A DNA stretch of 45,290 bases from Tepidiphilus sp. J10. Its GTDB lineage: Bacteria; Pseudomonadota; Gammaproteobacteria; Burkholderiales; Thiobacillaceae. The notes under the pieces are model-generated. The model ran no database searches, had not been told where the DNA came from, and worked only from the letters and a program-made list of their open reading frames with translations. Positions 4,544 to 17,397 of the stretch are shown in pieces; the stretch's first letter is position 1; each line of letters begins with the position of its first letter. Where the stretch lies: assembly GCA_945897865.1 (NCBI GenBank), contig CAMDHJ010000012.1:1-45290 (forward strand), written 5' to 3'. A program made the position numbers and the translations under genes.

Positions 4544-5051
4544 GTTGCCTCCTGTAAACAAGTGGGTGACGAATTTTCAGAACGGGCGAAATGTTGCCGC
4601 GTTCAAAGCGTAGCTGGAAACCGAGACTGAACTGTCTCCATTGGAAGGTCCGGTGAATGCATGCAAGTAGATAATTCGTTGCGAGATTAGCCAGAACAGC
4701 ATCTAGCACCTTGCCAGATAATAAGCATTCGATATCTCATCACTCTTCATTTTGGGCGAGCAACTACTACTGTCAATGTCTATCTCTAAGTAAATTCCCT
4801 TATCTATTACACATCTCTGAAATCCTGAAACCATGACTTCGTTCCACTCGTCGCGATCGGCGCGTTTCGCCAAACGGCAAACACAGGAGTTCCCATTAAT
4901 TGCGCCTGATCAAATCGGCAGCCCTTTCAGCGGTGTTCTATTTCGGTTGCAACATTCTTGGGTTACCCTGCTGGACGTTTAATCACTTTCCCCTGTGCGC
5001 CCGTTCCTTTGGGCGCCCCGCTGGAAAACCATTCTGATTGTCTGATTACAG
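4544..5051. promoter_or_regulatory. 508-base divergent intergenic region between lipoprotein operon and gspC
   Basis: No convincing gene is present. The region is clearly more AT-rich between about 4660 and 4830 than the flanking genes, as expected of a divergent promoter region. Next to the lipoprotein start (4575-4609) is a block that resembles one upstream of the lipoprotein gene starting at 13558 (listed separately). No clear sigma-70 hexamer pair could be placed with confidence. Confidence 0.5.
4575..4609 (-). promoter_or_regulatory. Candidate conserved upstream element, copy 1
   Basis: The plus-strand text starts tttcagaacgggcgaaat and continues to gccgcgttcaaag. A similar block occurs at 13614-13647 upstream of the Ig-like lipoprotein gene; by eye about 24 of 34 positions agree with one gap. 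Both lie 30-60 bases upstream of lipoprotein start codons in the same orientation, so a shared promoter or regulator site is possible. It may be chance. Confidence 0.3.
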
Positions 5052-5897
5052 TTGTCGATACCCTTGACTTCCCGCCCAGCGTGGGCACTTCGTTTACCCA
5101 CTTTCGCGCTGATCGCGGCACTCCTGCTGTTAACCTGGCTGTTGGCGCACTGGACCTGGGTTTTTCTGACGCCACGCCAGCAGGCATCGTCATCTTCCGC
5201 TTCCGCGCCGGCATTGAGCAAAGTGCTGGCCGAAAAAGTGGTGGGCTTGCAACTTTTTGGTGGGACCGCTACCAGCGAGCTCATCGGAGAGTCCGTGCCG
5301 GTGGCTGCGGTTTCCAACATTGGTGTGCGCGGCGTGTATTCGACGCGTGACGGGCGTTCCGGTTTTGCGGTGCTGGTGGTGGATGGCCAGCCGATTTCGG
5401 CAATCACCGGGCAAGAGTTTTCGCCTGGGCTAGTGTTGCAACGGGTGTATCCGGATAGCGTCGAAATTCTGCGCGGCAGTCAGTTGGAGACAGCTCGAAT
5501 GGTGACATCAACCGGAGGGGTCGCGTCGCCTTCTACCCCAACGGGAAGCAGCGACGCCTTGCAAATGACCGTGCGGCAACTGGGCCCTCGCCAATATGGT
5601 TTTTCGCGTACTGAATTATTGGCAATGTTGAAGCGCCCGGATCAGATGGTGTTGTTGGGTCGTTATGGTCCACATCCGCGTGGCGGGGCGGTGCTGGAGC
5701 GGAGCCCGGCGGGCGGCTTGCCGGAAAAACTCGGTTTGAAAGTGGGTGATGTCGTCACCGGAATCAATGGCAAACCCTTGTCGGGTCCGGGCGATGTGGC
5801 ACGCCTTTATCAACTTCTGATCAAAAGTGAGAGAGTCAGCGTGGATGTCTTGCGAGCGGGTAACAAGATGGATTTTGGCCTACAGGTGACCTCATGA
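5052..5897 (+). CDS. gspC: Type II secretion system inner-membrane protein GspC
   Basis: A 281-residue bitopic protein. It has a short cytoplasmic N-terminus, one membrane segment at about residues 14-35 (FALIAALLLLTWLLAHW), a periplasmic homology region around 60-140 (LFGG, GVRGVYSTRDGRSGFAVL) and a C-terminal PDZ domain (GLKVGDVVTGINGKPLSG). GspC links the inner-membrane platform to the GspD secretin and helps recruit substrates. The frame is closed by a TGA at 5043, so the first usable start is the TTG at 5052; a second TTG lies four codons later. The start is therefore uncertain. The stop overlaps the gspD start by four bases (ATGA), implying translational coupling. Confidence 0.88.
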   Translation: MSIPLTSRPAWALRLPTFALIAALLLLTWLLAHWTWVFLTPRQQASSSSASAPALSKVLAEKVVGLQLFGGTATSELIGESVPVAAVSNIGVRGVYSTRDGRSGFAVLVVDGQPISAITGQEFSPGLVLQRVYPDSVEILRGSQLETARMVTSTGGVASPSTPTGSSDALQMTVRQLGPRQYGFSRTELLAMLKRPDQMVLLGRYGPHPRGGAVLERSPAGGLPEKLGLKVGDVVTGINGKPLSGPGDVARLYQLLIKSERVSVDVLRAGNKMDFGLQVTS

Positions 5898-7954
5898 ATC
5901 GAAGCACACGCAGAAACCTGGCTACTTTGGCGTTGTGTCTGATGCTGCCATTCGCCCATGCCGACAGCCGGGTCACACTCAACTTCGTCAATGCCGAGAT
6001 CGATACCGTAGTGCGTGCGATGGGGCAGATCACCGGGAAGAATTTTCTACTCGATCCGCGCGTGAAGGGCACGATCAATATCTCATCGGTGGCGCCGGTC
6101 AGTGCGGACTTGGCCTATCAGATATTGATTTCCTCGCTGCGCATGCAGGGCTTTACCGCAGTGGAAGGCAAGGGCGTGGTGAAAATTCTGCCGGAGGCGG
6201 ATGCCAAACAGCACTACAGCCAGACGTTCGGCAAGGTTGTGAAGAGTGGTGGCGATCAGGTAGTGACTCAGGTTTATCCGTTGCAACACGCTACTGCCGC
6301 GCAATTGGTCACTGTACTCAGACCCTTGATTGCCCCGAACAACGCAGTCTCGGCGTACCCCGGTTCAAACACCTTGGTGATCACCGATTACGCAGAAAAC
6401 CTGAAACGCCTGACCCAGATCATCGAGGCGATCGACAAGCCCAACGATGCCGAATTCAACGTCATCAAGGTCAAGCATTTATCGGCAATCGAACTGGCGC
6501 AGCAGTTATCTCGTCTCTTCGCCGACCCAACCGGTGCACCGGCCGCGCAGGCGCCAGGCAGCGCGTTGATGATTTCCGCCGATGGCCGCAGCAACAGCTT
6601 GCTGGTGCGCACCGACAATCAAGGCAAGCTGGAAACCTTGCGCGCGATGGTGGCGCAACTCGATACGCCCACCGCCGGCATGAGCAATCTGCAGGTGGTG
6701 CATTTGCGCAATGCGGACGCGACCAAGCTGGCGGAAACCTTGCGTGCAGTCGCGGCAGCAGATTCGCGCAGTAGTGCCGGAGTAGCGCCAGCGGGCGGCG
6801 CGCCAGCCACGACCAGCAGCAACGGCGTCACCATTCTGGCCGACGCAGCGACCAATTCCCTGGTCATCAACGCACCGGATCATCTTTACAACAGCCTGCG
6901 CGCGGTGATCGACAAGCTGGATGCACAACGCGCGCAGGTGTTTGTCGAAGCGCTGATTGTCGAAGTCACTAGCGAGAAAGCTGCAGAGTTGGGCATTCAA
7001 TGGCAAGGTCCAATCCTGCAACGTGCCAACGATTTCGCCCTGCTCGGTGGCACTAATTTCGGCACTGGTGGCAATAATCTGCTTGGCCTTTCCTCTGCCA
7101 TCGCCGGTGGCACGGCTTTGCCTTTGCCTAGCCCCGGATTGAATCTAGCCCTGGGCCAAATGATTACGCTGAATGGCGAAAAGGTCACCAGCTTGACCGC
7201 GTTGGCGCGTCTGCTGGAAACCGACAGCGATGCCAATATCCTGTCGACGCCGAACATCCTGACCATGGATAACGAAGAAGCCAAGATTGTCATCGGCCAG
7301 AACGTACCATTTGTCACCGGCAGCTACTCGCAGACCGGCACCACGGGTGCACTTACGAGTCCGTTCAAAACAGTTGAGCGTAAGGACGTCGGCTTAACTT
7401 TGAAAGTCAAGCCGCAGGTTTCCGAAGGTGGCAACGTCAAACTGCAGATCATGCAGGAGGTGTCCAGCGTATTTAATGCGGAGAATCCGGACGGCATCAC
7501 CACCAACAAACGCTCGATAGAAACCACGGTGCTGGTCGGCGATGGCGAGGCCATCGTGCTGGGCGGCCTGATTCAGGACGACGTTTCAAATGACGTCAAC
7601 AAAGTCCCCGGCCTGGGCAACATTCCACTACTAGGGGCTCTGTTCCGGAGTGAGGTGCGCAATCGTAAAAAGACGAATTTGATGGTGTTCCTGCGACCCG
7701 TAGTGGTGCGCACGCAGGAGGCGATGGCTGGCTTGACCGAAAGTCGCTACGACTTTATCCGCAACGTCTATGGCGCTTACCCGATTCAAAAGCGCTGGCT
7801 TTTGCCAGATAACTCGCCTGGCGCATTGCCGGATTTGAAGCTGGACAACATGTTGACCGCCAAACCGGTTGCGTCAAGGGTGGTTGAAACCATCGAACCG
7901 AAGCCGGCCATACCTGCCCAACCGGCGCCTGCTTATCCATTCTGGCCCGACTGA
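5894..7954 (+). CDS. gspD: Type II secretion system secretin GspD
   Basis: A 686-residue outer-membrane channel subunit. A cleavable signal peptide ends near FAHA-DS. The N0 domain follows (VTLNFVNAEIDTVVRAMGQ), then three KH-like N1-N3 repeats, the last interrupted by a Ser/Ala/Gly-rich loop (about 290-310), and the secretin core with VPFVTGSYSQTG and the C-terminal GLIQDDVSNDVNKVPGLGNI signature. The final 90 or so residues are a Pro/Ala-rich tail that could serve as the pilotin-binding S-domain, although no pilotin gene is nearby. It is coupled to gspC by overlap. Eight bases after its stop an ATG opens what looks like the original gspE start, now disrupted. Confidence 0.95.
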   Translation: MNRSTRRNLATLALCLMLPFAHADSRVTLNFVNAEIDTVVRAMGQITGKNFLLDPRVKGTINISSVAPVSADLAYQILISSLRMQGFTAVEGKGVVKILPEADAKQHYSQTFGKVVKSGGDQVVTQVYPLQHATAAQLVTVLRPLIAPNNAVSAYPGSNTLVITDYAENLKRLTQIIEAIDKPNDAEFNVIKVKHLSAIELAQQLSRLFADPTGAPAAQAPGSALMISADGRSNSLLVRTDNQGKLETLRAMVAQLDTPTAGMSNLQVVHLRNADATKLAETLRAVAAADSRSSAGVAPAGGAPATTSSNGVTILADAATNSLVINAPDHLYNSLRAVIDKLDAQRAQVFVEALIVEVTSEKAAELGIQWQGPILQRANDFALLGGTNFGTGGNNLLGLSSAIAGGTALPLPSPGLNLALGQMITLNGEKVTSLTALARLLETDSDANILSTPNILTMDNEEAKIVIGQNVPFVTGSYSQTGTTGALTSPFKTVERKDVGLTLKVKPQVSEGGNVKLQIMQEVSSVFNAENPDGITTNKRSIETTVLVGDGEAIVLGGLIQDDVSNDVNKVPGLGNIPLLGALFRSEVRNRKKTNLMVFLRPVVVRTQEAMAGLTESRYDFIRNVYGAYPIQKRWLLPDNSPGALPDLKLDNMLTAKPVASRVVETIEPKPAIPAQPAPAYPFWPD

Positions 7955-7962
7955 GCTTCATC

Positions 7963-8064
7963 ATGCAGCCGATCGACCCCGTCATTGTCCGCCGCATTCC
8001 TTACCACGCCGCGCGGATGTTGCGTTGCGGGGGTGGCGTCACCAAATTAATGTTTATACAATAA
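7963..8064 (+). pseudogene. Remnant of the gspE 5' end, cut off by the brnTA insertion
   Basis: An ATG eight bases after gspD opens a 33-residue frame that reads MQPIDPVIVRRIPYHAAR before diverging and stopping at 8062. The intact gspE downstream begins MVEILSCDAAIVRRIPYHAAR, so VRRIPYHAAR is shared. At the DNA level 7978-8016 aligns with 8684-8722 with about six mismatches, mostly at third codon positions. The spacing after gspD is what an operon gene would have. The simplest reading is that this was the native gspE start, separated from the rest of the gene by the toxin-antitoxin pair. The divergence between copies points to recombination with a different gspE allele rather than a recent target-site duplication. 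Confidence 0.7.
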
Positions 8065-8065
8065 A
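8053..8065 (+). promoter_or_regulatory. Candidate brnTA promoter/operator palindrome
   Basis: Immediately before the brnT start lies TTTATACAATAAA, a five-base inverted repeat around ACA that contains a TATACA-like -10 hexamer. BrnA-type antitoxins bind palindromes in their own promoter. A matching -35 hexamer at normal spacing was not found, so this is a weak inference. Confidence 0.3.
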
Positions 8066-8069
8066 TGCA

Positions 8070-8339
8070 GTGGGCTACGAATTCGACGCAGCAAAAGACG
8101 AGAGCAATCTCGTTAAGCATGGATTGTCGTTGGCTGATTCCGAAGGCTTTGAATGGGAAACAGCCGTGGTTCGTGAGGACACACGCAAGCAGTACGACGA
8201 GCAACGGTTAGAAGCAACCGGCCTGATTGGTGATCGGCTGCATGTGATGATCTACTGCCTGCGCAGTGATGTCGTTCGCGTCATCAGCCTTCGCAAGGCC
8301 AACCCAAGAGAGGTGAGACGTTATGTCGCTGAAAACTAA
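8070..8339 (+). CDS. brnT: BrnT-family toxin
   Basis: An 89-residue protein read from a GTG at 8070. It begins GYEFDAAKDESNLVKHGLSL, the characteristic BrnT opening (Y-x-W/F-D-x-x-K-x-x-x-N-x-x-K-H), and ends with the family's VRVISLRKANPREVRRY. Characterised BrnT proteins are RelE-fold ribonucleases that inhibit translation and are neutralised by BrnA. The start is set by family length, since earlier ATGs are out of frame or stopped. Its 3' end overlaps brnA by 17 bases, the usual toxin-first arrangement. It lies inside the gsp operon, between the gspE remnant and the intact gspE. A short TTTAT-ACA-ATAAA palindrome just upstream could be an autoregulatory site. Confidence 0.88.
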   Translation: MGYEFDAAKDESNLVKHGLSLADSEGFEWETAVVREDTRKQYDEQRLEATGLIGDRLHVMIYCLRSDVVRVISLRKANPREVRRYVAEN

Positions 8340-8670
8340 ATCGGGTCGCATCGTTCAGGTGCCCACCCCGGAAGAAGACGCTGCCATTAACGCCGGCATC
8401 GCCGCTGACCCGGATGCCCGCGAATTGGACGCTGAATGGTTTGCCCAGGCAAAACCGGCCAGCGAGTTTTACCAGGCAGAAACTTATGCCGCGTTGGTCG
8501 CCATGAAACGCCCACGTGGCCGCCCAAAAGCTGACGAAACGAAAGTCTTTACCGCCATCCGCCTGGATGCAGATTTGCTGGCCGCGTTCAAGTCCACTGG
8601 CAAGGGTTGGCAAACGCGGGTGAATGCCGCGCTCCGCCAGTACATTGCTGAGCACCCGATAAATGGTTGA
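8323..8670 (+). CDS. brnA: BrnA-family antitoxin
   Basis: A 115-residue protein. The C-terminal part (KVFTAIRLDADLLAAFKSTG, then WQTRVNAALRQYI) is the ribbon-helix-helix-like DNA-binding domain of BrnA. The N-terminal part is the acidic, probably flexible toxin-binding region. BrnA neutralises BrnT and represses the shared promoter. A GAGG site nine bases before the ATG, inside the brnT end, supports the start. Its last eight bases overlap the gspE start codon (ATGGTTGA), so the secretion ATPase is now translationally coupled to an antitoxin gene. That coupling is unusual and could tie gspE expression to toxin-antitoxin autoregulation. Confidence 0.88.
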   Translation: MSLKTKSGRIVQVPTPEEDAAINAGIAADPDARELDAEWFAQAKPASEFYQAETYAALVAMKRPRGRPKADETKVFTAIRLDADLLAAFKSTGKGWQTRVNAALRQYIAEHPING

Positions 8671-10156
8671 AATCCTGTCCTGCGACGCCGCCATCGTGCG
8701 CCGCATTCCCTACCACGCCGCCCGCGCGCATGGTGTTGTCGCGGCGCGCCAGGTCGGCGATGCGATCGAACTCTGGGTACGCGAAGGCGCCGGCGTGGCG
8801 GCCTTGTCCGAGGCGCGGCGGGTACTGGCAGCCCCCTTGTTGCCGGTGTTGCTGACGGGGGAAGACTTTGACGCCCGTCTAGCGCAAGCCTATGCGCGTG
8901 AGGAAACCCATGCCGCGCAGATCATGGACGACCTCGAACAGGAGATCGACCTCACTGCGCTCGCACAGGACATTCCGGCCGTCGGTGATCTGCTCGAATC
9001 AGAAGACGACGCGCCGATCATTCGGCTGATCAACGCGCTGCTGGCACAGGGGCTGCGCGAGGGCGCTTCCGATATCCACCTGGAGGCCTATGAAAACCGC
9101 TCCGTAATCCGCTATCGCGTCGATGGCATGCTGCGCGACGTAATGACGCCGCCGCGCCCGCTGCACGCGGCGCTGGTATCGCGCATCAAGGTCATGGCCA
9201 GCCTGGACATCGCGGAAAAGCGTCTACCGCAGGATGGCCGCATTACCTTGCGCGTCGCCGGCCGGCCAGTCGATGTGCGGGTATCGACGCTGCCAACCGG
9301 CCACGGCGAGCGTGTCGTGCTGCGTCTGCTCGACAAACAGCACGGCCGTCTGCAACTCGAAGCGCTGGGGATGAACCCGTCCGTGCTGGCGGGGCTGGAC
9401 AACCTGATCCGCGCGCCGCACGGCATCATCCTGGTCACCGGGCCTACCGGTTCCGGCAAAACGACGACGCTATATGCCGCGCTGTCACGACTCGACGCCA
9501 CCAAGCTGAACATCATGACGGTGGAAGACCCGATCGAGTACGACCTCGATCAGGTCAGCCAGACGCATGTCAATCCGCGCATCGAGCTCACCTTCGCCCG
9601 CGCCCTGCGCGCCATCCTGCGGCAAGACCCTGACGTGGTGATGATCGGCGAAATCCGCGATCTGGAAACCGCGCAGATTGCCGTTCAGGCGTCACTCACC
9701 GGCCATCTTGTTCTGGCCACCTTGCATACCAATGACGCGCTCGGCGCGGTGACCCGCTTGTCCGACATGGGCGTGGAGCCCTATCTGCTGGCCACCAGCA
9801 TGATCGGCGTGCTCGGCCAACGTCTGATTCGCCGCCTGTGTCCTGCCTGCAAACAACCCGCGCCGCTGGATGGCGCGGAGCAGGCCGCCCTGGCGGGGTT
9901 CAACATCAGTCAAGTGATGCATGCCGTCGGTTGCGCCGAATGCAACCACACCGGCTATCGCGGCCGCACCGGCGTATACGAACTGTTTAGCCTGAATGAC
10001 TCCGCCCGCCGTCTGATCCACGACGGCGCCAGCGAAGCCGAACTACGCGCGGAAGCCACGCACAATGGCTGGCTGAGTCTGTACGACGATGGCCTGCGCT
10101 GGGTCGCGGCGGGGGAGACCACGCTGGAAGAAGTCATGCGTGTGGCCAGGGCATGA
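8663..10156 (+). CDS. gspE: Type II secretion system ATPase GspE
   Basis: A 497-residue cytoplasmic motor ATPase that powers pseudopilus assembly. The N1E-like N-terminal domain is short. The ATPase core has Walker A GPTGSGKTTT at about residue 259, an Asp box, Walker B DPDVVMIGEIRD, a His box (LHTND) and a tetracysteine zinc motif (CPAC near 392, CAEC near 424). All key residues are present, so it should be functional. The start overlaps the brnA stop, and its first nine or so residues differ from the remnant after gspD. By eye the codon choice looks richer in G and C at third positions than in gspD, which would fit import of this segment with brnTA; this was not computed. Confidence 0.94.
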   Translation: MVEILSCDAAIVRRIPYHAARAHGVVAARQVGDAIELWVREGAGVAALSEARRVLAAPLLPVLLTGEDFDARLAQAYAREETHAAQIMDDLEQEIDLTALAQDIPAVGDLLESEDDAPIIRLINALLAQGLREGASDIHLEAYENRSVIRYRVDGMLRDVMTPPRPLHAALVSRIKVMASLDIAEKRLPQDGRITLRVAGRPVDVRVSTLPTGHGERVVLRLLDKQHGRLQLEALGMNPSVLAGLDNLIRAPHGIILVTGPTGSGKTTTLYAALSRLDATKLNIMTVEDPIEYDLDQVSQTHVNPRIELTFARALRAILRQDPDVVMIGEIRDLETAQIAVQASLTGHLVLATLHTNDALGAVTRLSDMGVEPYLLATSMIGVLGQRLIRRLCPACKQPAPLDGAEQAALAGFNISQVMHAVGCAECNHTGYRGRTGVYELFSLNDSARRLIHDGASEAELRAEATHNGWLSLYDDGLRWVAAGETTLEEVMRVARA

Positions 10157-10176
10157 TTTACCCCCGCAGCGAAGTC

Positions 10177-10251
10177 CGTAGGATGGGCGAAGCGCAGCGC
10201 GCCCATCGGAACGCACTGATGATGGGCGCGCTTTGCTTCGCCCATCCTACG
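10177..10251. repeat. Near-perfect 31-base inverted repeat (REP/BIME-like) between gspE and gspF
   Basis: The left arm (10177-10207, starting cgtaggatgggcgaagcgca) and the right arm (10221-10251) are reverse complements at 29 of 31 positions, separated by 13 bases. A single related copy lies at 45038-45068, matching the left arm at about 28 of 31. The GTAGGATGGG...CCCATC form is like repetitive extragenic palindromes scattered through many proteobacterial genomes. As RNA it would form a very stable hairpin between two cotranscribed secretion genes and could reduce gspF expression or protect the upstream message. Confidence 0.85.
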
Positions 10252-10270
10252 AAAGGTGATTCAAGCCCAA

Positions 10271-11485
10271 ATGGCCGGATTCCGCTTTGAAGCCATAAAC
10301 GCTGCCGGGGGCCGCGAACGCGGTGTACTGGAAGCCGATACGCCACGTCAGGCGCGTTCGCAGTTGCGCGATCGCGGCTTGATCCCCACACAAATTGATG
10401 TATTGCTGGAAGCAGAGCAAAAGCAGAAAAAAGGCCGCTTGTCTGATCGCGGTCTATCCACTGCCGATCTAGCCCTCGCCACCCGCCAGATGGCGACGTT
10501 GCTGGCGGCGGGTTTGACGATGGAAGAAACCCTCTCCGCCTGCATCGAACAATCCGAATCCACCGCCACCCAGCGCGTACTGGCCGGCGTTCGCGGCGAA
10601 GTGCTTGGCGGCGCATCGTTGTCGCGCGCGATGGCGCGTTATCCCGCCGTGTTTTCCGAGCTTTACCGCACCCTGGTCGCGGCGGGCGAAGACTCCGGCA
10701 AGCTGGGAGGTGTGCTGGAAAGGTTGGCGGATTACATTGAATCGCGCAATGCACTGCATCGCCGCGTCAGCCTGGCCTTCATCTATCCAGCCCTGGTTAC
10801 TACGGTGGCAGTACTGGTGGTGACCGGCCTGCTGACTTATGTCGTGCCGCAAGTAGTGGCGGTATTTGAAAACTCGCATCAGACACTGCCCTTGCTAACC
10901 CAGATACTAATCGGCGCTTCCGGCCTGTTGCGCAGCTTCGGACTCTATCTGCTCGCCGCGTTGATCGGCGCCGCCTTGCTGTTCCGCCAAGCGCTGCGTG
11001 GCGAAGCCTTCCGGCGGCGCTGGCATCTTTTCCTGTTGCGCTTGCCGCTGATTGGTCGCCTGACCCGCAACGTCAACACCGCCCGCCTGACCAGCACTCT
11101 GGCCATCCTTTCCGGCAGCGGCGTACCGCTGCTCCCCGCCCTGAATGCAGCCGCCGGAGTGGTCAGCAACCTGCCGATGCGCAGTGCGGTCGATGAAATC
11201 TACAAAAAAGTCCGCGAAGGCGGCAGCATGAGCCGCGCCATCGCCGCCACCGCCATGTTCCCGCCGGTAATGACGCATCTGGTCGCCAGCGGCGAGAAAA
11301 GCGGGCGCCTACCGGAAATGCTGGACCGAGTAGCCAGCCAGCAAACTCAGGAACTCGACACCCGCGTGCTTTCAATGACCGCGCTGCTGGAACCGCTGCT
11401 GATCCTGGTTATGGGCGGCGTGGTACTGCTGATTGTGCTGGCGATCTTGATGCCGATATTTGAGATGAATCAGATGGTGCGGTGA
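10271..11485 (+). CDS. gspF: Type II secretion system inner-membrane platform protein GspF
   Basis: A 404-residue polytopic protein that anchors the GspE motor. It begins MAGFRFEAINAAGGRERG, the usual GspF opening, so the ATG at 10271 is preferred to the in-frame GTG at 10256 that lies next to the inverted repeat. Two T2SF/PilC-type cytoplasmic domains (LATRQMATLLAAGLTMEETL; TARLTSTLAILSGSGVPLL) are each followed by hydrophobic membrane segments, with a final C-terminal one (LLILVMGGVVLLIVLAILM). It is the last gsp gene here. Pseudopilin genes gspG-K and gspL, gspM and gspN do not follow, so they must lie elsewhere if the system is complete. Confidence 0.95.
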   Translation: MAGFRFEAINAAGGRERGVLEADTPRQARSQLRDRGLIPTQIDVLLEAEQKQKKGRLSDRGLSTADLALATRQMATLLAAGLTMEETLSACIEQSESTATQRVLAGVRGEVLGGASLSRAMARYPAVFSELYRTLVAAGEDSGKLGGVLERLADYIESRNALHRRVSLAFIYPALVTTVAVLVVTGLLTYVVPQVVAVFENSHQTLPLLTQILIGASGLLRSFGLYLLAALIGAALLFRQALRGEAFRRRWHLFLLRLPLIGRLTRNVNTARLTSTLAILSGSGVPLLPALNAAAGVVSNLPMRSAVDEIYKKVREGGSMSRAIAATAMFPPVMTHLVASGEKSGRLPEMLDRVASQQTQELDTRVLSMTALLEPLLILVMGGVVLLIVLAILMPIFEMNQMVR

Positions 11486-11545
11486 GGGTTTATCCCTTGG
11501 AACTGAAGACTGAAATAATTAATATAACTGCTCATCGCAACAAAG

Positions 11546-11570
11546 AAAAAGGCGCCAGCGGCGCCTTTTT
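11546..11570. terminator. Bidirectional rho-independent terminator between gspF and the convergent lipoprotein gene
   Basis: The sequence is AAAAA, then GGCGCC-AGC-GGCGCC, then TTTTT. The six-base GC stem with a three-base loop is flanked by A and T runs, so it can work in both directions. It sits 60 bases after gspF and 24 bases beyond the stop of the minus-strand gene ending at 11594, which is the expected position for both. Confidence 0.9.
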
Positions 11571-11593
11571 CATTTCACCTCAACCTTAAAGTT

Positions 11594-13558
11594 TTACCAA
11601 TCAGCTGGTGAATGGGGAAGTGAACAAGTAGGACTTGCATCCTCCGTTGAGTAAGGCAGGATAATTTTCAGTTCATTGGTTGACTCAGTTGTTCCCGCAC
11701 CAATTACAACTTTCGCTCTCACCCGAGTTTGGACCCAGGAAGAATATTCTTTCTGATAGATCAAAGAGAATGCGGCAACTCCGTTTACGTCAGTGGTCAC
11801 TGTGGACGGAAGAGTACCGGCATTGGCATGTGCGGGCGTCAAGGTTCCATTACCATTCACGTCTTCGCCAGGATCCAAATTATCGTTTTCAGAGAACGAG
11901 TTGTTCAGCACTGTATCCTCACTTGAAAAATTACCCGTATAAGTCGGAGCACAAGTAGTCGGATTTCTTGTGCCTTCATAATATCTCGTTGGGAAAGCCG
12001 ACAAACTCACGACAGCGCCATTTACTGCAGCGCCTGAACTGTCAACCACCAGAACTGACATGGGCAAATTGTAATTGGTATTGTTATTTACCGACTCTAT
12101 TCTCGAAGCCGTACCGAGCGAGACACTGACCGCCAGCGTGTTGACGTTGATTGTTTTTACATCGCAAAGACCAGCGATAGGCGGGATTGCAAGGTTGTCA
12201 CAAGCCGGATTGGTGCCCAACAGGCTGGCCTTGATTTTCAATCCCCCGACAGTTGGTAGAGAGCCGGAATAAAAAGTTGCAATTGCGCGACCATTGCTAT
12301 CTGTATTCAAAATGACTGGTGTGATCTGCTCACCACTTCCAGTCGGATTCATGATTTCAAATAATACCGGTGCATTTCCAACCACATTGCCACCAGGACC
12401 GGTTCGCACTGTAGCCGTCAATGTTGTGCTGGGATTGGTGCCAGCGCTACTCGGCGCAATGTTTGAAACTCCGGCTTGCAGCGTGACATCGCCAGCAGAA
12501 GCAGGTGATGCACTGAGCTGGAATATGCGGTTCAATGTGGCAAGAACAGTATCGTTTACATCAAGTGCATCAATCTGGATGTTTGCTGTTCCTGAGGATG
12601 AACCCGCTGAAAATACTTCATTGACCGGGTCTGAGGCTGCCAGCGTCCTCACTTTTGCACCATTCGACCAAGTACCCAAAGTAGTACTAAAACGAACGTT
12701 TGTTACCGTTATCCCAGAAATTGATGTTGGAACACTCACTGTTACCGGTTGAGTTGCAGCCAAGGTGACCGAGGTTGTAGCGCTTGATGGGTTTGTTACT
12801 GAATATTGAATACCAGGTGCTGAAACAGCGATGCTTGTATTTGCGGATTGGGTGACATTTCCCGTGCTATCCAGCCAATCAGCTGTGACCTGCACATTGC
12901 CAGCAATAGCCGGCGTGTAGGTGATGGTTGGACTTATGCCTCCCGCTAGGGAAGTAACTGTTTGAGAAAGCGTTGTTCCAGCGCCTCCAGTCAAACTGCC
13001 ATTTCCCGCTGGAATTGAAAGCCGCAGAGATTGGCCGCTAATACCCAAACTAGAGGCATCTTCAATTACCACATTCAACGAAACGGGAGTACCGCCGACA
13101 ACAGCGGAATTCGATGAAGGTGTTAATGTTATGGTAGAGCCAATTACTTGAATCGGTATTTGAGCAGTAACACCATTTGGCGAAGATACATTGATAGTTT
13201 CGGTACGATTCGTTTTGTTGGTAGTTCCAGAAGAGAAGGGTATGGTGACAATTCCGGAACTTGAAGAAACGCCAGAGCTAACCCCTAGTTGCCCAGAACT
13301 GGAGGATGTGAATAACAGTGCAACATCAGAAACTGGTGCACGATTAGCATCAAGTACCGTAGCGGTAATCGTGGCTGGATTTAAATTATCCGAATTAACC
13401 GATGTGGCAGATGTAGCCAGCAATAGATAAGTAACTGTTTTCCCGGTTGTTGGAGTCGCACTCCCACCCGCACCGCCGCCACCGCAGCCCGCTAGTATTC
13501 CGCTGATTCCGATGAACCCGGCCAAAAGCAGGCTTTTGATTGTTTTCAAGGTACACAT
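11594..13558 (-). CDS. Lipoprotein with bacterial Ig-like (Big_1/invasin-type) repeats
   Basis: A 654-residue predicted surface lipoprotein. From the ATG at 13558 the signal peptide reads MCTLKTIKSLLLAGFIGISG and ends in the lipobox LAGC followed by GGGG. A GTG eleven codons earlier is the alternative start. The rest is Ser/Thr/Ala-rich with at least three Ig-like blocks of the invasin/Big_1 kind (TATVLDANRAPVSDVALLF near 60; SLNVVIEDASSLGISGQ near 155; MSVLVVDSSGAAVNGAVVSL near 510). The last 120 residues contain DNLDPGEDVNGNG, a calcium-loop-like stretch. Such proteins usually act as adhesins or outer-surface structural components. It shares an upstream block with the 875-residue lipoprotein and ends at the terminator it shares with gspF. 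Its ligand is unknown. Confidence 0.75.
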   Translation of the reverse strand: MCTLKTIKSLLLAGFIGISGILAGCGGGGAGGSATPTTGKTVTYLLLATSATSVNSDNLNPATITATVLDANRAPVSDVALLFTSSSSGQLGVSSGVSSSSGIVTIPFSSGTTNKTNRTETINVSSPNGVTAQIPIQVIGSTITLTPSSNSAVVGGTPVSLNVVIEDASSLGISGQSLRLSIPAGNGSLTGGAGTTLSQTVTSLAGGISPTITYTPAIAGNVQVTADWLDSTGNVTQSANTSIAVSAPGIQYSVTNPSSATTSVTLAATQPVTVSVPTSISGITVTNVRFSTTLGTWSNGAKVRTLAASDPVNEVFSAGSSSGTANIQIDALDVNDTVLATLNRIFQLSASPASAGDVTLQAGVSNIAPSSAGTNPSTTLTATVRTGPGGNVVGNAPVLFEIMNPTGSGEQITPVILNTDSNGRAIATFYSGSLPTVGGLKIKASLLGTNPACDNLAIPPIAGLCDVKTINVNTLAVSVSLGTASRIESVNNNTNYNLPMSVLVVDSSGAAVNGAVVSLSAFPTRYYEGTRNPTTCAPTYTGNFSSEDTVLNNSFSENDNLDPGEDVNGNGTLTPAHANAGTLPSTVTTDVNGVAAFSLIYQKEYSSWVQTRVRAKVVIGAGTTESTNELKIILPYSTEDASPTCSLPHSPADW

Positions 13559-13613
13559 CTTTGTATTCCCCAGTTTCGTTTCAATTGACACGCTGTTGCC
13601 AGATTATTCTAGG

Positions 13614-13647
13614 TTTCAGAACGAGCAAATACGCCGCATTTTGGACG
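13614..13647 (-). promoter_or_regulatory. Candidate conserved upstream element, copy 2
   Basis: The plus-strand text starts tttcagaacgagcaaatacg and resembles 4575-4609. On the minus strand it is followed downstream by TAGAAT (plus positions 13606-13611), a plausible -10 hexamer for the lipoprotein gene starting at 13558. The conserved block would then cover the -35 region, where an activator or alternative sigma factor would act. Confidence 0.3.
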
Positions 13648-13701
13648 AATCGTACCCGACCCAATTAGCCGTTCTATTAATCGTATTCCTTAAAATTCTC
13701 G

Positions 13702-13926
13702 CTACGCCGCCAGCAATTCATGCAGACGCTTAGCCGTATGCTGCTGTACCTCGACAACCTCGAAAAAATCGCGTGGGTAAAGATAATCCTCACCGCTGTC
13801 GTCCACTACTCTAATCATGCCATGGTCATCGACCGGAGCTTGCACTTCGTACAAACGGCCAAGCGTTAAGTCATCGGTAGAAAAGTCACCGTAGCCTTCC
13901 CTTGAGATGCACACCACGAAATTCAT
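13702..13926 (-). CDS. Small acidic protein, function unknown (74 aa)
   Basis: The start at 13926 (MNFVVCISREGY) is preferred to an ATG two codons earlier because AAGGA is then correctly spaced. The protein is rich in Asp, Glu and Val (DDHGMIRVVDDSGEDYLYP), with a short SH3-like or beta-barrel feel (GRLYEVQAPVDD, then DFFEVVEV). No family could be named. The start overlaps the stop of a 44-residue upstream frame by four bases (ATGA), so the two are probably translationally coupled. The arrangement of two tiny overlapping genes resembles a toxin-antitoxin module in layout only; no toxin motif is visible. Confidence 0.6.
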   Translation of the reverse strand: MNFVVCISREGYGDFSTDDLTLGRLYEVQAPVDDHGMIRVVDDSGEDYLYPRDFFEVVEVQQHTAKRLHELLAA

Positions 13927-14057
13927 AGCCATTCCTTTATCTTGAGATTCACCTTGCCGATTCCATGCCGCGTTCTCAACAAAGCGAGATCACGGATGCC
14001 ATTGCCCTGGGCGATGGTTTCAACGCTAACAATTTCTCCGACAATTTCAAATTTCAT
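13923..14057 (-). CDS. Very small protein (44 aa), possibly an internally deleted family member
   Basis: It reads MKFEIVGEIVSVETIAQG, continues with GIRDLALLRTRHGIGK and ends KVNLKIKEWL. From memory, small basic proteins of about 70-80 residues occur in many bacteria with an N-terminus like EIVGEI..IETIA...IRDL and a C-terminus like HGIGKKEFKIK. Here those two ends are joined directly, as if about 25-30 central residues (usually Arg/Lys/Trp-rich) had been lost in frame. The stop overlaps the start of the 74-residue gene. A GATAA...TTATC palindrome (14060-14076) lies three bases upstream of the start. Function is unknown. That it is translated is inferred from the coupling and the family-like sequence. 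Confidence 0.45.
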   Translation of the reverse strand: MKFEIVGEIVSVETIAQGNGIRDLALLRTRHGIGKVNLKIKEWL

Positions 14058-14165
14058 CTGATAACCGAGGCTTATCACCGTTGCGAAGGTAATGACCTGC
14101 TTCCAGCTTTTCCGAACAAACTTAATATCCTGTCTGCCCCAACTAACTCGATTCGCTTGTTCGTG

Positions 14166-15137
14166 TCAATGATGCTTGAAAACGTCTTCCAGCGTGGCGG
14201 CATCCAGGAGGTTTTCAGCCCATTGTTCGAGTTGTTCAAGCGTGGCGGTCTTTAGTCTGGCTTGTGTCTCGGCGGTTGGCGGGCCGAAGCGGTGGGCGAG
14301 GAGGCGGGCGAGCATGGCTGATTCGCCTTGTTGCACGCCTTGTTGCATGCCTTGTTGCATGCCTTGTTGCATGCCTTGTTGCATACCTTTTTCAATGCCG
14401 ATGCGTTCTACCGAGGTGATGTAGGGCATGGTGCGGTTCCTTTCCAGTTGTTCGATGTCTTGCCAGAGCTGCATTTGCAGGTCTTTGGGTACTTGCATCA
14501 TCCAGTCAATGACGCTGAACAGGTCGATGATGCGTTGTTTATCCCAGTTGCGTTCGTAGAGCAGTTTAGCCAGCCGCCATTTTGCTGCAAGCCGTTGGCG
14601 GTCGTCGCCTTTGATTTGCCGGGTAAGCAGGTGGGCGGCGGTGACCAGGGCGAAGGGATTGGCGTCTGCGAGAAGTGCTTCGGTTTGGGGCTGGTAGTCG
14701 AGTAGCTTAACGGTGGGAAATTCGAGGTAGTGTCGGCAGCCGAAGAGTTGGTAGCCATAGCTTTGTGGCTTCCAGTTTTCGCGTTCGTCTGCCAAAACAG
14801 CCAGGCTGGCGATGGGTCGGCGGTATTTGTCGTAGAGACGGTAGTTGTAGGTGAACAGGCGTTCAGCAAAGTTGCCGTCTTGACCGCCCTGCACTTCGAT
14901 ATGGATATAGACCCAGTGTTCGCCACCGTCATGGGTGGCGACCTGGGCGAGTTTATCGATGAGCCGTTTGCCGAGTTCGGCGTCTTTGACGATCTGCGCA
15001 AGTTCCTGGTCGAGAAAGGTATGGCCCCGGTTCCAGTCGATTTGCTTTTCTGCTTCGGGAAAGTAGAACGCGATGAACTCGGGAAAATAACGTGTGACCG
15101 CATCTTTCCAGGGTGTGTCGTAGTCGTCATTGGACAA
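14166..15137 (-). CDS. Rpn-family recombination-promoting nuclease / PD-(D/E)XK-type transposase-like protein
   Basis: A 323-residue protein that begins SNDDYDTPWKDAVTRYFPEF, then has DQELAQIVKDAELGKRLIDK and HDGGEHWVYIHIEVQGGQD. This is the pattern of the Rpn/YhgA-like family, where the acidic residue and the E-V-Q segment form the PD-(D/E)XK nuclease core. Rpn proteins promote RecA-independent recombination, and some act in phage defence. Near residue 255 five tandem four-residue repeats (MQQG x4, VQQG) form a coiled-coil-like linker before a C-terminal DUF4351-like segment (FGPPTAETQARLKTATLEQL). The first in-frame start is a TTG at 15137, with no ATG before the core, so the start is uncertain. 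It stands alone, downstream of pilQ on the same strand. Confidence 0.75.
   Translation of the reverse strand: MSNDDYDTPWKDAVTRYFPEFIAFYFPEAEKQIDWNRGHTFLDQELAQIVKDAELGKRLIDKLAQVATHDGGEHWVYIHIEVQGGQDGNFAERLFTYNYRLYDKYRRPIASLAVLADERENWKPQSYGYQLFGCRHYLEFPTVKLLDYQPQTEALLADANPFALVTAAHLLTRQIKGDDRQRLAAKWRLAKLLYERNWDKQRIIDLFSVIDWMMQVPKDLQMQLWQDIEQLERNRTMPYITSVERIGIEKGMQQGMQQGMQQGMQQGVQQGESAMLARLLAHRFGPPTAETQARLKTATLEQLEQWAENLLDAATLEDVFKHH
14325..14384. repeat. In-frame 12-base tandem repeat (5 units) in the Rpn-like gene
   Basis: There are five adjacent units of gccttgttgcat (the first ends in c) on the plus strand, encoding MQQG repeats on the minus strand. The unit length is a multiple of three, so copy-number changes keep the frame. 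Near-identical units suggest recent expansion by slippage. Confidence 0.9.
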
Positions 15138-15180
15138 CCTTGATCGGCATCGGGCTCAGGCTGCATGGTTAGCCAGCCCC

Positions 15181-17397
15181 TTAGCGACCGCTCAACAAGT
15201 CATCCTGCAATATCCGGGGGGTGAGGAATATCAGCATTTCCGATTTGGTATCGGATTTGCTGTTGCTTCTAAATAAATTCCCCAGGACTGGCAAGTCACC
15301 AAGAAATGGGACTTTGTCGGTGTCGTTGCGCAAGGTTTGTTCGAAGATGCCACCAAGCACAGCGGTTTCTCCGTTATTGACCCTTACCTGAGTTTTGATT
15401 CGCTTGGCGTTGATGGCCACGTTGTCGCCAACCTGGGCCCCACGGGCGTCTTTGGTGACTTCAACATTGAGGATGACCGAATCGTTATTCAATACCTGCG
15501 GATTGACCAGCAGACAAAGCAGCGCATCTTTGAAGGTTGTCGTTGCAGGCGCATTGGCTGAACCGGGGGTGACGACCGGAATCTGTTCGCCTTGAAGAAT
15601 GACTGCGGGGCGTAGATTTGTGGTCACCACTCGCGGGTTGGAAACGATCTTGCCTCGGTTATCCACTTCCAGCGCCTGTAGCTCCAGACTCAGAATAGCG
15701 GCCGTTGATGCATTGAAAATGGTAAATCCCAGGCTGGGTGCACCGGCAGCGCCCAGATTGACGTTGGTCGTTGGCGCTGCGGCGGTGACACCAGTAGTCG
15801 CGCCTACGGCTGAGGTTTCGTAAGTACCCAAACCAAACTTGGTATCGCCACTCTTGCCACTACCCTGGAATCCCAGCTTGGCGCCCAAATCACGGCTGAA
15901 TGTGTCATCGGCGACCACGATGCGCGCTTCGATCATGACCTGCTTTGAAGGCACGTCGACGCCCTTCAGCACTTCTTCGATGGCGGTATGGCGTTCCAGC
16001 GTATCGGTGACAACCAATGTGTTGGTGGTCAGGTCGTGCGACGCGCCGCCACGGTTGGATAACACACGATTGACATTGTTGTTTGAATTCGCTGAATTTC
16101 CAGATTGACCTGAAGTAGTACTTCCGCTGGACCCGCCTGAAGTGACATCGGCCTGGATCCCCGTTGAACTCGGTGAACAAGTAGCGGTTTCCTGGCTTCC
16201 TGAGAGCGATCTGGATTCTCCAGAAATAACCGCCAAAGCCTCATCCGCGCGCAGATAGTTGAGGCGATAACTCCGCGTAGTCAGCGTCTCCAGATCCGCC
16301 AACGATTTCTTGGCTTCCAGTTCCTGCTTTTCCTTGGCCGCGAGTTCATCGCGTGGGGCGATCCAGATCACACTGCCGCTGGCGCGTTTGTCGAGTCCTT
16401 TGGCGCGCATGATGATGTCCAGCGCCTGATCCCAGGGCACATCCTTCAGCCGCAGAGTGACATTCCCGGAGACGGTATCGCTGGCGATGATGTTCAACCC
16501 GGTGAAGTCGGCGATGACTTGCAGCACTGCCCGCACTTCAACATTCTGGAAATTCAGCGTGAGTTTTTCGCCGCTATAGATCGGCTTTTCACTCTTGGCC
16601 AGACTGGGATCGTCAAGCGAACGGATATCCATGACGAACTGATTGCCGGTTTGATGCGCCGAGTAATCCCATCGGCCTTTGGGCGTGACCAGCATGCGAA
16701 CGTTCTTGCCCTGCTCGAAGGTTTCGATCAGTTGCGCCGGGGTTGCGAAATCTGCGACATCCAGACGCCGCTGGAGAGCGCCGGGCAGCGTTGTGTTGAG
16801 AAAATCGACTTGGATGGCGCGACCTTTTTGCTGAATGTCGATGCCGACACCGGGGTCGCTCAGGCTGATCGTGATGCGGCCTTCATTGTTTTTACCGCGA
16901 CGAAAATCGACATCGCGGATACCGTATTCACGTTGGCTGCTTGCTGCCGCAAACTTTGCTGGCGCGCTTGCTGGCATACCGGCATCGGCTTTCATAGTCG
17001 CGCCCTGCAACACAACCAGAATCATGTTGCGATCCTTGCGCAATTCATGGCTGGCCGGCACGTTCAGGTTGAACACGATGCGTGTCCGTTCACCTGCCTG
17101 AACCACCTGGTAATTCTTGATCGTGGCGCTGTTCATCGATTCAACCACGCGTCCGATGCTGTTTGTGGTGTCGGCAAGATCGACGACCAATCGATGCGGA
17201 TTACTGGTCGTAAATGAAACCGGCATGGCCTCGACCGTGTCTTTCATGATGATCTTGATTACTTGGCTTTCATTCGGCCCTTCCGCGACGGAAACCCGGT
17301 TCAGCACATTGGCTGCATAGCCAGGCAAGGCGGCGAAATATGCCAGGCCAGCGACCAAGCTGATCCAGACAGGCATCTTCGATTGATTTGTTTTCAT
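15181..17397 (-). CDS. pilQ: Type IV pilus outer-membrane secretin PilQ
   Basis: A 738-residue secretin through which type IV pili leave the cell. The signal peptide ends near LPGYAAN. Two AMIN peptidoglycan-binding domains (about 30-125 and 160-255) come first, then the STN/N0 region (LTLNFQNVEVRAVLQVIADF, about 278). Next are the N1 domain with a Ser/Gly/Asn-rich insertion (about 405-445, GGSSGSTTSGQSGNSANSNN) and the secretin core with GEQIPVVTPGSANAP and the C-terminal FLGDLPVLGNLFRS signature. It is the last gene of pilMNOPQ and starts six bases after the pilP stop. The aroK-aroB genes that often follow pilQ are absent; an Rpn-type gene lies there instead. Confidence 0.96.
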   Translation of the reverse strand: MKTNQSKMPVWISLVAGLAYFAALPGYAANVLNRVSVAEGPNESQVIKIIMKDTVEAMPVSFTTSNPHRLVVDLADTTNSIGRVVESMNSATIKNYQVVQAGERTRIVFNLNVPASHELRKDRNMILVVLQGATMKADAGMPASAPAKFAAASSQREYGIRDVDFRRGKNNEGRITISLSDPGVGIDIQQKGRAIQVDFLNTTLPGALQRRLDVADFATPAQLIETFEQGKNVRMLVTPKGRWDYSAHQTGNQFVMDIRSLDDPSLAKSEKPIYSGEKLTLNFQNVEVRAVLQVIADFTGLNIIASDTVSGNVTLRLKDVPWDQALDIIMRAKGLDKRASGSVIWIAPRDELAAKEKQELEAKKSLADLETLTTRSYRLNYLRADEALAVISGESRSLSGSQETATCSPSSTGIQADVTSGGSSGSTTSGQSGNSANSNNNVNRVLSNRGGASHDLTTNTLVVTDTLERHTAIEEVLKGVDVPSKQVMIEARIVVADDTFSRDLGAKLGFQGSGKSGDTKFGLGTYETSAVGATTGVTAAAPTTNVNLGAAGAPSLGFTIFNASTAAILSLELQALEVDNRGKIVSNPRVVTTNLRPAVILQGEQIPVVTPGSANAPATTTFKDALLCLLVNPQVLNNDSVILNVEVTKDARGAQVGDNVAINAKRIKTQVRVNNGETAVLGGIFEQTLRNDTDKVPFLGDLPVLGNLFRSNSKSDTKSEMLIFLTPRILQDDLLSGR

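Follow-up and report, generated by a model that had tools for sequence, protein, structure and literature searches.

The window, the whole 45,290-nt stretch of Tepidiphilus sp. J10 DNA that was analysed, carries a type II secretion operon in which gspC, gspD, gspE and gspF are recognised in this order by their Pfam domains. All features of the operon lie on the + strand. The gspC gene is located at 5052..5897 (T2SSC, PF11356, 2.1e-14) and gspD, encoding the secretin, at 5894..7954 (Secretin, PF00263, 1.7e-50, plus an N0 domain), with its stop codon at 7952-7954. The full-length gene of the secretion ATPase, gspE, occupies 8663..10156 (T2SSE, PF00437, 4.6e-147; GSPE_N1E, PF22341, 1.3e-13), and gspF lies at 10256..11485 (PF00482, 4.3e-60). 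The best solved relative of the window GspE is 4pht_A, General secretory pathway protein E. Two matches to the T2SSG family, the only component sought elsewhere, are located on other contigs of the same genome.

Between gspD and the complete gspE lie a cut-short gspE start and an intact brnT–brnA pair. The cut-short start (7963..8064) begins with an ATG at 7963, 8 nt past the gspD stop, opens MQPIDPVIVRRIPYHAARMLRCGGGVTKLMFIQ and ends with a stop codon at 8062-8064, 5 nt ahead of brnT. This 33-codon open frame is read as a relic of the native gspE start from its sequence, its place and spacing, which are those of the gspE start in relatives, and its counterpart in a second genome, G016. The toxin gene brnT (8070..8339, GTG start) matches PF04365 over the entire profile (4.9e-21, positions 1-77 of 77; 75.3 bits, cut-off 34.5), as does the antitoxin gene brnA (8323..8670) with PF14384 (3.4e-24, 1-68 of 68; 85.4 bits, cut-off 26.1). 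The only sequence match of BrnT to a solved toxin is a weak one (7vd7_A, 7.9e-6), and BrnA matched no solved structure at 0.01; PADLOC returned nothing useful. The last codons of brnA overlap the gspE start by 8 nt (8663..8670). Upstream of brnT, a conserved 13-nt core, GTTTATACAATAA (8052..8064), is kept at most of the other brnTA loci examined and is a candidate -10 element and a candidate BrnA operator.

According to the available text of two reports, brnTA is a toxin-first RNase pair regulated by BrnA (PMC11980606, PMC10714953). The window pair resembles such modules, for example BrnT/BrnA of Brucella, in its gene order, its two Pfam families, its overlapping genes and the conserved element before brnT. 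It differs in its position within a secretion operon, in the relic of the next gene in front of it and in its poor -35 element. Other BrnT-family matches in the window's own genome (G000) are found at C41:1612-1863, C141:9539-9766 and C14:5555-5794, two of them over the cut-off and one under it. Elsewhere in the window, a DUF4351 protein (PF14261, 1.5e-11; 14166-15137, - strand) is encoded next to pilQ. DUF4351 proteins are often transposase-like nucleases.

The insert is bordered by a direct repeat of host sequence, one copy lying in the relic (7974..8015) and the other within gspE (8683..8724), identical at 36 of 42 positions (85.7%). The up/down similarity score is 32, compared with a 99th percentile of 17 for shuffled sequences. 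Such a duplication had been proposed in the first-pass annotation of this DNA and is borne out, except that the second interval given there (8684-8722) is off by 3 nt: the proper partner of 7978-8016 is 8687-8725, identical at 32 of 39 positions. The codon differences over these 39 nt are mostly synonymous, as claimed there (five of seven; two are non-synonymous). A fresh transposon-type target-site duplication is rejected, again in line with that annotation, since 7 of 39 positions differ and the 709 nt between the repeats contain no transposase or integrase gene, being filled by the end of the relic, brnT and brnA.

The offset of the two copies is 709 nt, and 7981 and 8690 both begin codons, as follows arithmetically from the sequence. 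The relic and gspE codons are therefore in register, so that recombination between the copies would leave a single open gspE and the module could be lost cleanly. The earlier expectation that loss of the module must damage gspE thus finds no support.

The gspD–gspE junction with and without brnTA

In six relatives (G003, G013, G021, G017, G002 and G009), gspD is followed by a single gspE start and the repeated segment occurs only once; no match to brnT or brnA was found in the regions fetched from them. In G003, G013 and G021, gspE starts 8 nt past the gspD stop, the same spacing as that of the window relic; G017 and G002 have less space between the two genes, and G009 has more. Apart from that of G009, which is shorter, these starts (five of six) resemble the relic, with an IDP or IDA motif and then a VRRIPYHAAR-like segment. 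The single start in all six bears out the initial proposal that brnTA lies within the gsp operon behind a remnant of the native gspE start. A gspE starting MVEILSC directly after gspD, which had been named as the observation that would speak against this proposal, occurs in none of them. In G021, gspD (L075, near 13547-16796) matches only from about residue 300, and another secretin-like match lies upstream, pointing to a truncation or a misassembly.

Among 23 genomes of the genus, 15 contain a BrnT relative (E 0.001 or better), but a close one (94%) is found only in G016, at the same site, and this is the only other genome of the 23 with the same insertion and a relic. The order there is the genome's own relic, MSQIDPAVVRRTYPRLRECGVAGGIIELLFIQ, brnTA and a gspE starting MADSLPIDPAIVRRIPYHAAR 22 nt after brnA, with no overlap between brnA and gspE. 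The G016 repeat is short, spanning 23 bp at 91%, with one synonymous and three non-synonymous codon differences. Both relics stay open, over 33 codons in the window and 32 in G016 (L079, about 5900-6000), and both end FIQ just before brnT. The open frames persist despite indels between them, which may be due to chance or may reflect a leader kept for translational coupling.

Beyond these two genomes, a DNA search of 117 family genomes, in which only about four candidates per genome were scored, matched relic and module jointly nowhere else; in G460, brnTA (76%) matches the module alone. A search for the gene order at a strict limit of E 1e-20 matched 6 of 399 genomes including the window's own, the best other being 55% identical, in a sample that, as far as listed, did not draw G016. 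Across the 73 loci of a genome-contig scan, gsp genes were found within the fetched flanks only at L079, taken to be the G016 record. Plasmids (82 records) and phages (6 records) gave only matches below 60% identity, and viral contigs yielded 14 BrnA relatives of at most 76%.

There are only two carriers, which counts against the explanation preferred below, and both are draft genomes (the window's own comprises 247 contigs and is 86% complete with 4.7% contamination). An artefact of assembly or binning, or a chance repeat, is nevertheless very improbable, as the order recurs in two independent assemblies that differ in sequence, the modules are contiguous within contigs of 45 kb and 19.7 kb, and the repeat score is far above that of the shuffles.

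Horizontal spread of brnTA at the gspD–gspE site

The modules of the window and G016 are far more alike than their surroundings. For brnT, dN is 0.030 and dS 0.164, and for brnA 0.027 and 0.348. The resulting dN/dS ratios, about 0.18 and 0.08, suggest that both genes are maintained. The dS values of the neighbouring genes are 1.56 (gspC), 1.42 (gspD), 0.74 (gspE) and 0.89 (gspF), and those of core genes 0.69 (tkt), 0.56 (gap), 0.89 (pgk), 1.28 (pyk), 0.57 (fba) and 1.15 (purC). Identical third positions amount to 172 of 203 in brnTA, compared with 1584 of 2531 in the six core genes (p 2.8e-11). The two carriers are not sister species. In a six-gene tree of eight genomes, G016 pairs with G017, and the window clusters with G021, G013 and G003, both at 100/100; rpoB was dropped as a species-tree gene, having a match in 15 of 23 genomes and none in the window's own. 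A clade of window and G016 is rejected for gspD (4e-8), gspE (3.7e-4), gspF (7e-4), tkt (6e-63) and the six joined genes (1e-6). The brnTA genes are thus too alike for the age of the window–G016 split, and the module moved between lineages at this site: brnTA spread horizontally at the gspD–gspE site between non-sister species.

The module might instead have entered once, in an ancestor, by an insertion that duplicated its target into two copies, identical at first and then drifting apart; both carriers would have inherited it vertically, and the other relatives would have lost it cleanly. The junction and module are alike in both, the in-register repeats permit clean loss, and the differences between relic and gspE in G016 are mostly non-synonymous. 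This history is nevertheless unlikely. The dS of brnTA is well below that of the gsp and core genes, at least G017, G003, G013 and G021 would need to have lost the module independently or stepwise according to the six-gene tree, and the differences between the window copies are mostly synonymous (5/7, p 0.025).

Recombination at the locus is well supported, the basis being a module common to non-sister species and much less diverged than its surroundings. The first-pass annotation had proposed recombination with a gspE allele carrying brnTA. This is still the best reading, but the body of gspE is not G016-like. A transfer of the whole gspE from a G016-like donor is ruled out by the trees (window with G016 rejected, p 3.7e-4). 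In the gene trees suggested at that stage, gspD of the window joins G013 (100/99), with a grouping with G003 rejected (p 1.2e-4), and the gspE tree does not settle the place of the window among G003, G013 and G021. By third-position GC content, brnT (0.63) and brnA (0.55) of G016 lie below gspC-F (0.77-0.88), whereas in the window the difference is small, brnT (0.58) and brnA (0.62) being barely below gspC (0.62) within a range of 0.62-0.78 for gspC-F.

The likeness of gspD to that of G013 sits after about position 7000 (0.83 and 0.82, compared with 0.68-0.77). Among gspE starts, those of G013, G017 and G021 are the best matches to the relic; for the downstream copy, G003 and G002 provide the best matches. 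Over the first 21 nt of gspE, the window shares 15 positions with G016 and 5-9 with G003, G013, G021 and G017. The intact gspE start of G016 best matches the relic of the window, which speaks against a simple donor story. The edges favour recombination at the junction, though they do not single out one donor.

Arrival and role of the module

The explanation preferred here, with a probability of about 0.7, is that brnTA arrived joined to a 5' piece of gspE, spread laterally and now rides on the secretion operon as an addiction module. The module would have come linked to the 5' piece of a gspE allele and would have paired with the recipient on the gspE side, while the other junction may be non-homologous or older. 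Recipient and donor pieces would then have come to lie side by side, with the native gspE start reduced to a short relic and gspE read from the second start behind brnA. Homology-facilitated illegitimate recombination involves one homologous and one non-homologous junction. An insert made in this way would end up between a donor part and a recipient part of one gene; for this locus the mechanism is only proposed. The secretion machine is unbroken by the module because the gspE start is present twice.

The overlap of brnA and gspE probably arose later. BrnA of many close relatives ends with HP(I/L) and two or three further residues, often with R last; it ends HPITR in G016 and HPING in the window, where the last codons enter the gspE start. 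At this junction, G016 has 30 nt that the window lacks. The simplest reading of these sequences is that the window lineage lost about 30 nt and that this joined the end of brnA to the start of gspE, which would make the overlap derived and peculiar to the window. Translation of gspE may accordingly be coupled to brnA in the window species only.

The GTTTATACAATAA core is complete (13/13) in the window and G016, and at least 11 of its 13 positions are present at 19 of 23 other loci tried. With a permitted spacing of 15-19, the -35 element of the window scores 3/6 and that of G016 4/6, compared with 5/6 or better at 8 of the 19 other core-bearing loci. A scan for promoters and terminators found no site on the + strand from gspD to gspE; it told little, as it returned no + strand promoter-like site across 4600-11700 either. 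The promoter region thus weakly suggests that the module may depend on read-through. The genes are probably read as one message, with stops and starts that are close or overlapping, and the module would mainly ride on the secretion operon. It would act as an addiction module, selfish or stabilising, that secretion does not require. In L080, L082, L084 and L090, TGTTTATACAA occurs again 35-36 nt upstream of the core, around a TTGAC-like or related -35. The doubled TGTTTATACAA may represent two putative BrnA operators; the window and G016 have only one.

Alternatively, brnTA may serve as a regulator of secretion, BrnA binding upstream and the coupling at the brnA end setting GspE levels and perhaps limiting secretion or phage entry under stress. 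The 8-nt overlap, the conserved core retained 5' of brnT and the maintenance of both genes would fit this role, as would the requirement of a Ralstonia phage for active GspE, stated in the available part of PMC9765573. It is improbable all the same, given that G016 has no overlap, that the -35 is poor in both carriers and that six relatives manage without brnTA. The observation at the locus is sound; control of secretion by the pair is not shown, and the locus cautions that a toxin–antitoxin (TA) pair inside an operon need not regulate that operon.

Repeats flanking other brnTA loci

TA pairs inserted into operons without a functional link are described in the accessible text of PMC7167474 for relA-mazEFG and dinB-yafNOP, and the ccd pair between folA and apaH is another in a host operon; their integration mechanism is called unelucidated there. 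The brnTA pair of the window is like these in lying between co-directional host genes and being absent from many relatives with an undisturbed operon. Here, the start of the interrupted gene is doubled and re-founded, and the site is common to two species. The insertion of restriction–modification systems is accompanied by target duplications that are long (about 100 bp) and variable (PMC3874152), an idea extended to post-segregational systems (PMC3031569), as far as the available parts of these sources tell. Long, variable direct repeats of host sequence at the insert edges and no transposase inside are shared with that type of insertion; what differs from it, as these parts describe it, is that a TA pair is inserted and that the copies often look like diverged alleles and less like one duplicated target (5 of 7 codon differences are synonymous in the window, 1 of 4 in G016). 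Among titles and abstract openings of the open-licence literature on brnTA or other TA pairs in connection with secretion-system operons, gspE, target duplication or homology-facilitated illegitimate recombination, no report of this arrangement was found. What is new and most useful is how the edges of the insertion are built: the locus provides a two-species case with both edges readable, to which a survey adds host-gene repeats at the edges of other brnTA loci.

A first set comprised 127 loci, 118 of them with a BrnT match, 110 distinct and 108 with enough flank. Of these 108, 14 (including the window as L070) show a direct repeat scoring 45 bits or more between the upstream and downstream flanks, compared with 13 of 941 random positions (p 4e-8). 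In a second set (90 loci, 88 with flanks), the repeat is found at 13 of 88 loci and 11 of 672 random positions (p 2.5e-7); the two sets share places (L368/L047 and L360/L054, and also L289/L058, of which L058 was dropped from the first set). Repeats abutting the module occur at 9 of 88 brnTA loci and 10 of 1400 random positions (p 3e-7), where 36 of 160 strand choices were ambiguous and were set by a motif. The random hits cluster in few loci, namely 5 of 56 under the loose rule and two under the abutting rule. HicA loci, used as a control, are also raised under the loose rule (8/69, random 17/456, p 0.01) and give 2/67 and 5/900 (p 0.08) under the abutting rule, with no significant difference between brnT and HicA under the latter (p 0.12). 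Without a clear separation from this control, the pattern may not be special to brnTA.

Fifteen loci of the first set and eight of the second were inspected. To judge by their sequences, the repeats at L065, L087, L228, L080 and L118 look dispersed or intergenic. In the readable cases, named from Pfam and beyond this by the analyst's reading, the repeats involve the 3' end of a ComM-like Mg-chelatase gene (L339; 269 columns, 95.5%), mfd (L380; 186 columns, 88%), polA (L359; 61 columns, 84%), ispH/LytB (L117; 91 columns, 93%), an ABC ATPase gene (L045, 31 columns, 94%; L047, 64 columns, 86%), an amidohydrolase gene (L343; 284 columns, 79%), an amino-acid-kinase-family gene (L048; 92 columns, 86%) and hicB (L241; 198 columns, 88%, with an incomplete brnT). 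In each, one copy stays part of a long open frame, which at L045 and L047 reaches the fetched edge.

Eleven pairs, picked for a repeat lying in a readable gene and including the same kind of gene from two genomes of the genus (L045/L047), were compared by codon. Their copies show 89 synonymous and 41 other differences (51 and 32 without L343), where the neutral share is about 0.28. The synonymous excess is significant alone in 5 of the 11 pairs (the window, L339, L380, L343 and L241) and not in the other six. By the analyst's estimate, about half of the differences would be synonymous if a relic drifted next to a gene under constraint. An excess above this level therefore points to diverged alleles, mainly at L343, L339 and L241 and weakly in the window. 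The codons of five of the eleven pairs thus look as though the module had brought a donor allele along.

A more general idea, put forward only tentatively and rated as rather doubtful, is that brnTA, and perhaps TA pairs more widely, spread without a recombinase by means of a linked fragment of a conserved host gene. Pairing would place the module at the edge of that gene, which would stay intact because its donor and recipient parts are complementary, and what is left over would be seen as an imperfect flanking repeat. The gspE case would then be one of a series with mfd, polA, ispH, the ComM-like gene, the ABC ATPase gene and the amidohydrolase gene. Doubled edges at other loci with this type of gene pair give a hint of the way in which these modules get into genomes; if they are general, the repeats mark donor and recipient, which makes the route of TA integration testable. 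A further observation concerns L241/L147, where brnTA occurs in a Glaciimonas record and a viral contig: the brnT match is partial (residues 52-85), and the start of hicB is repeated on both sides of the remnant.
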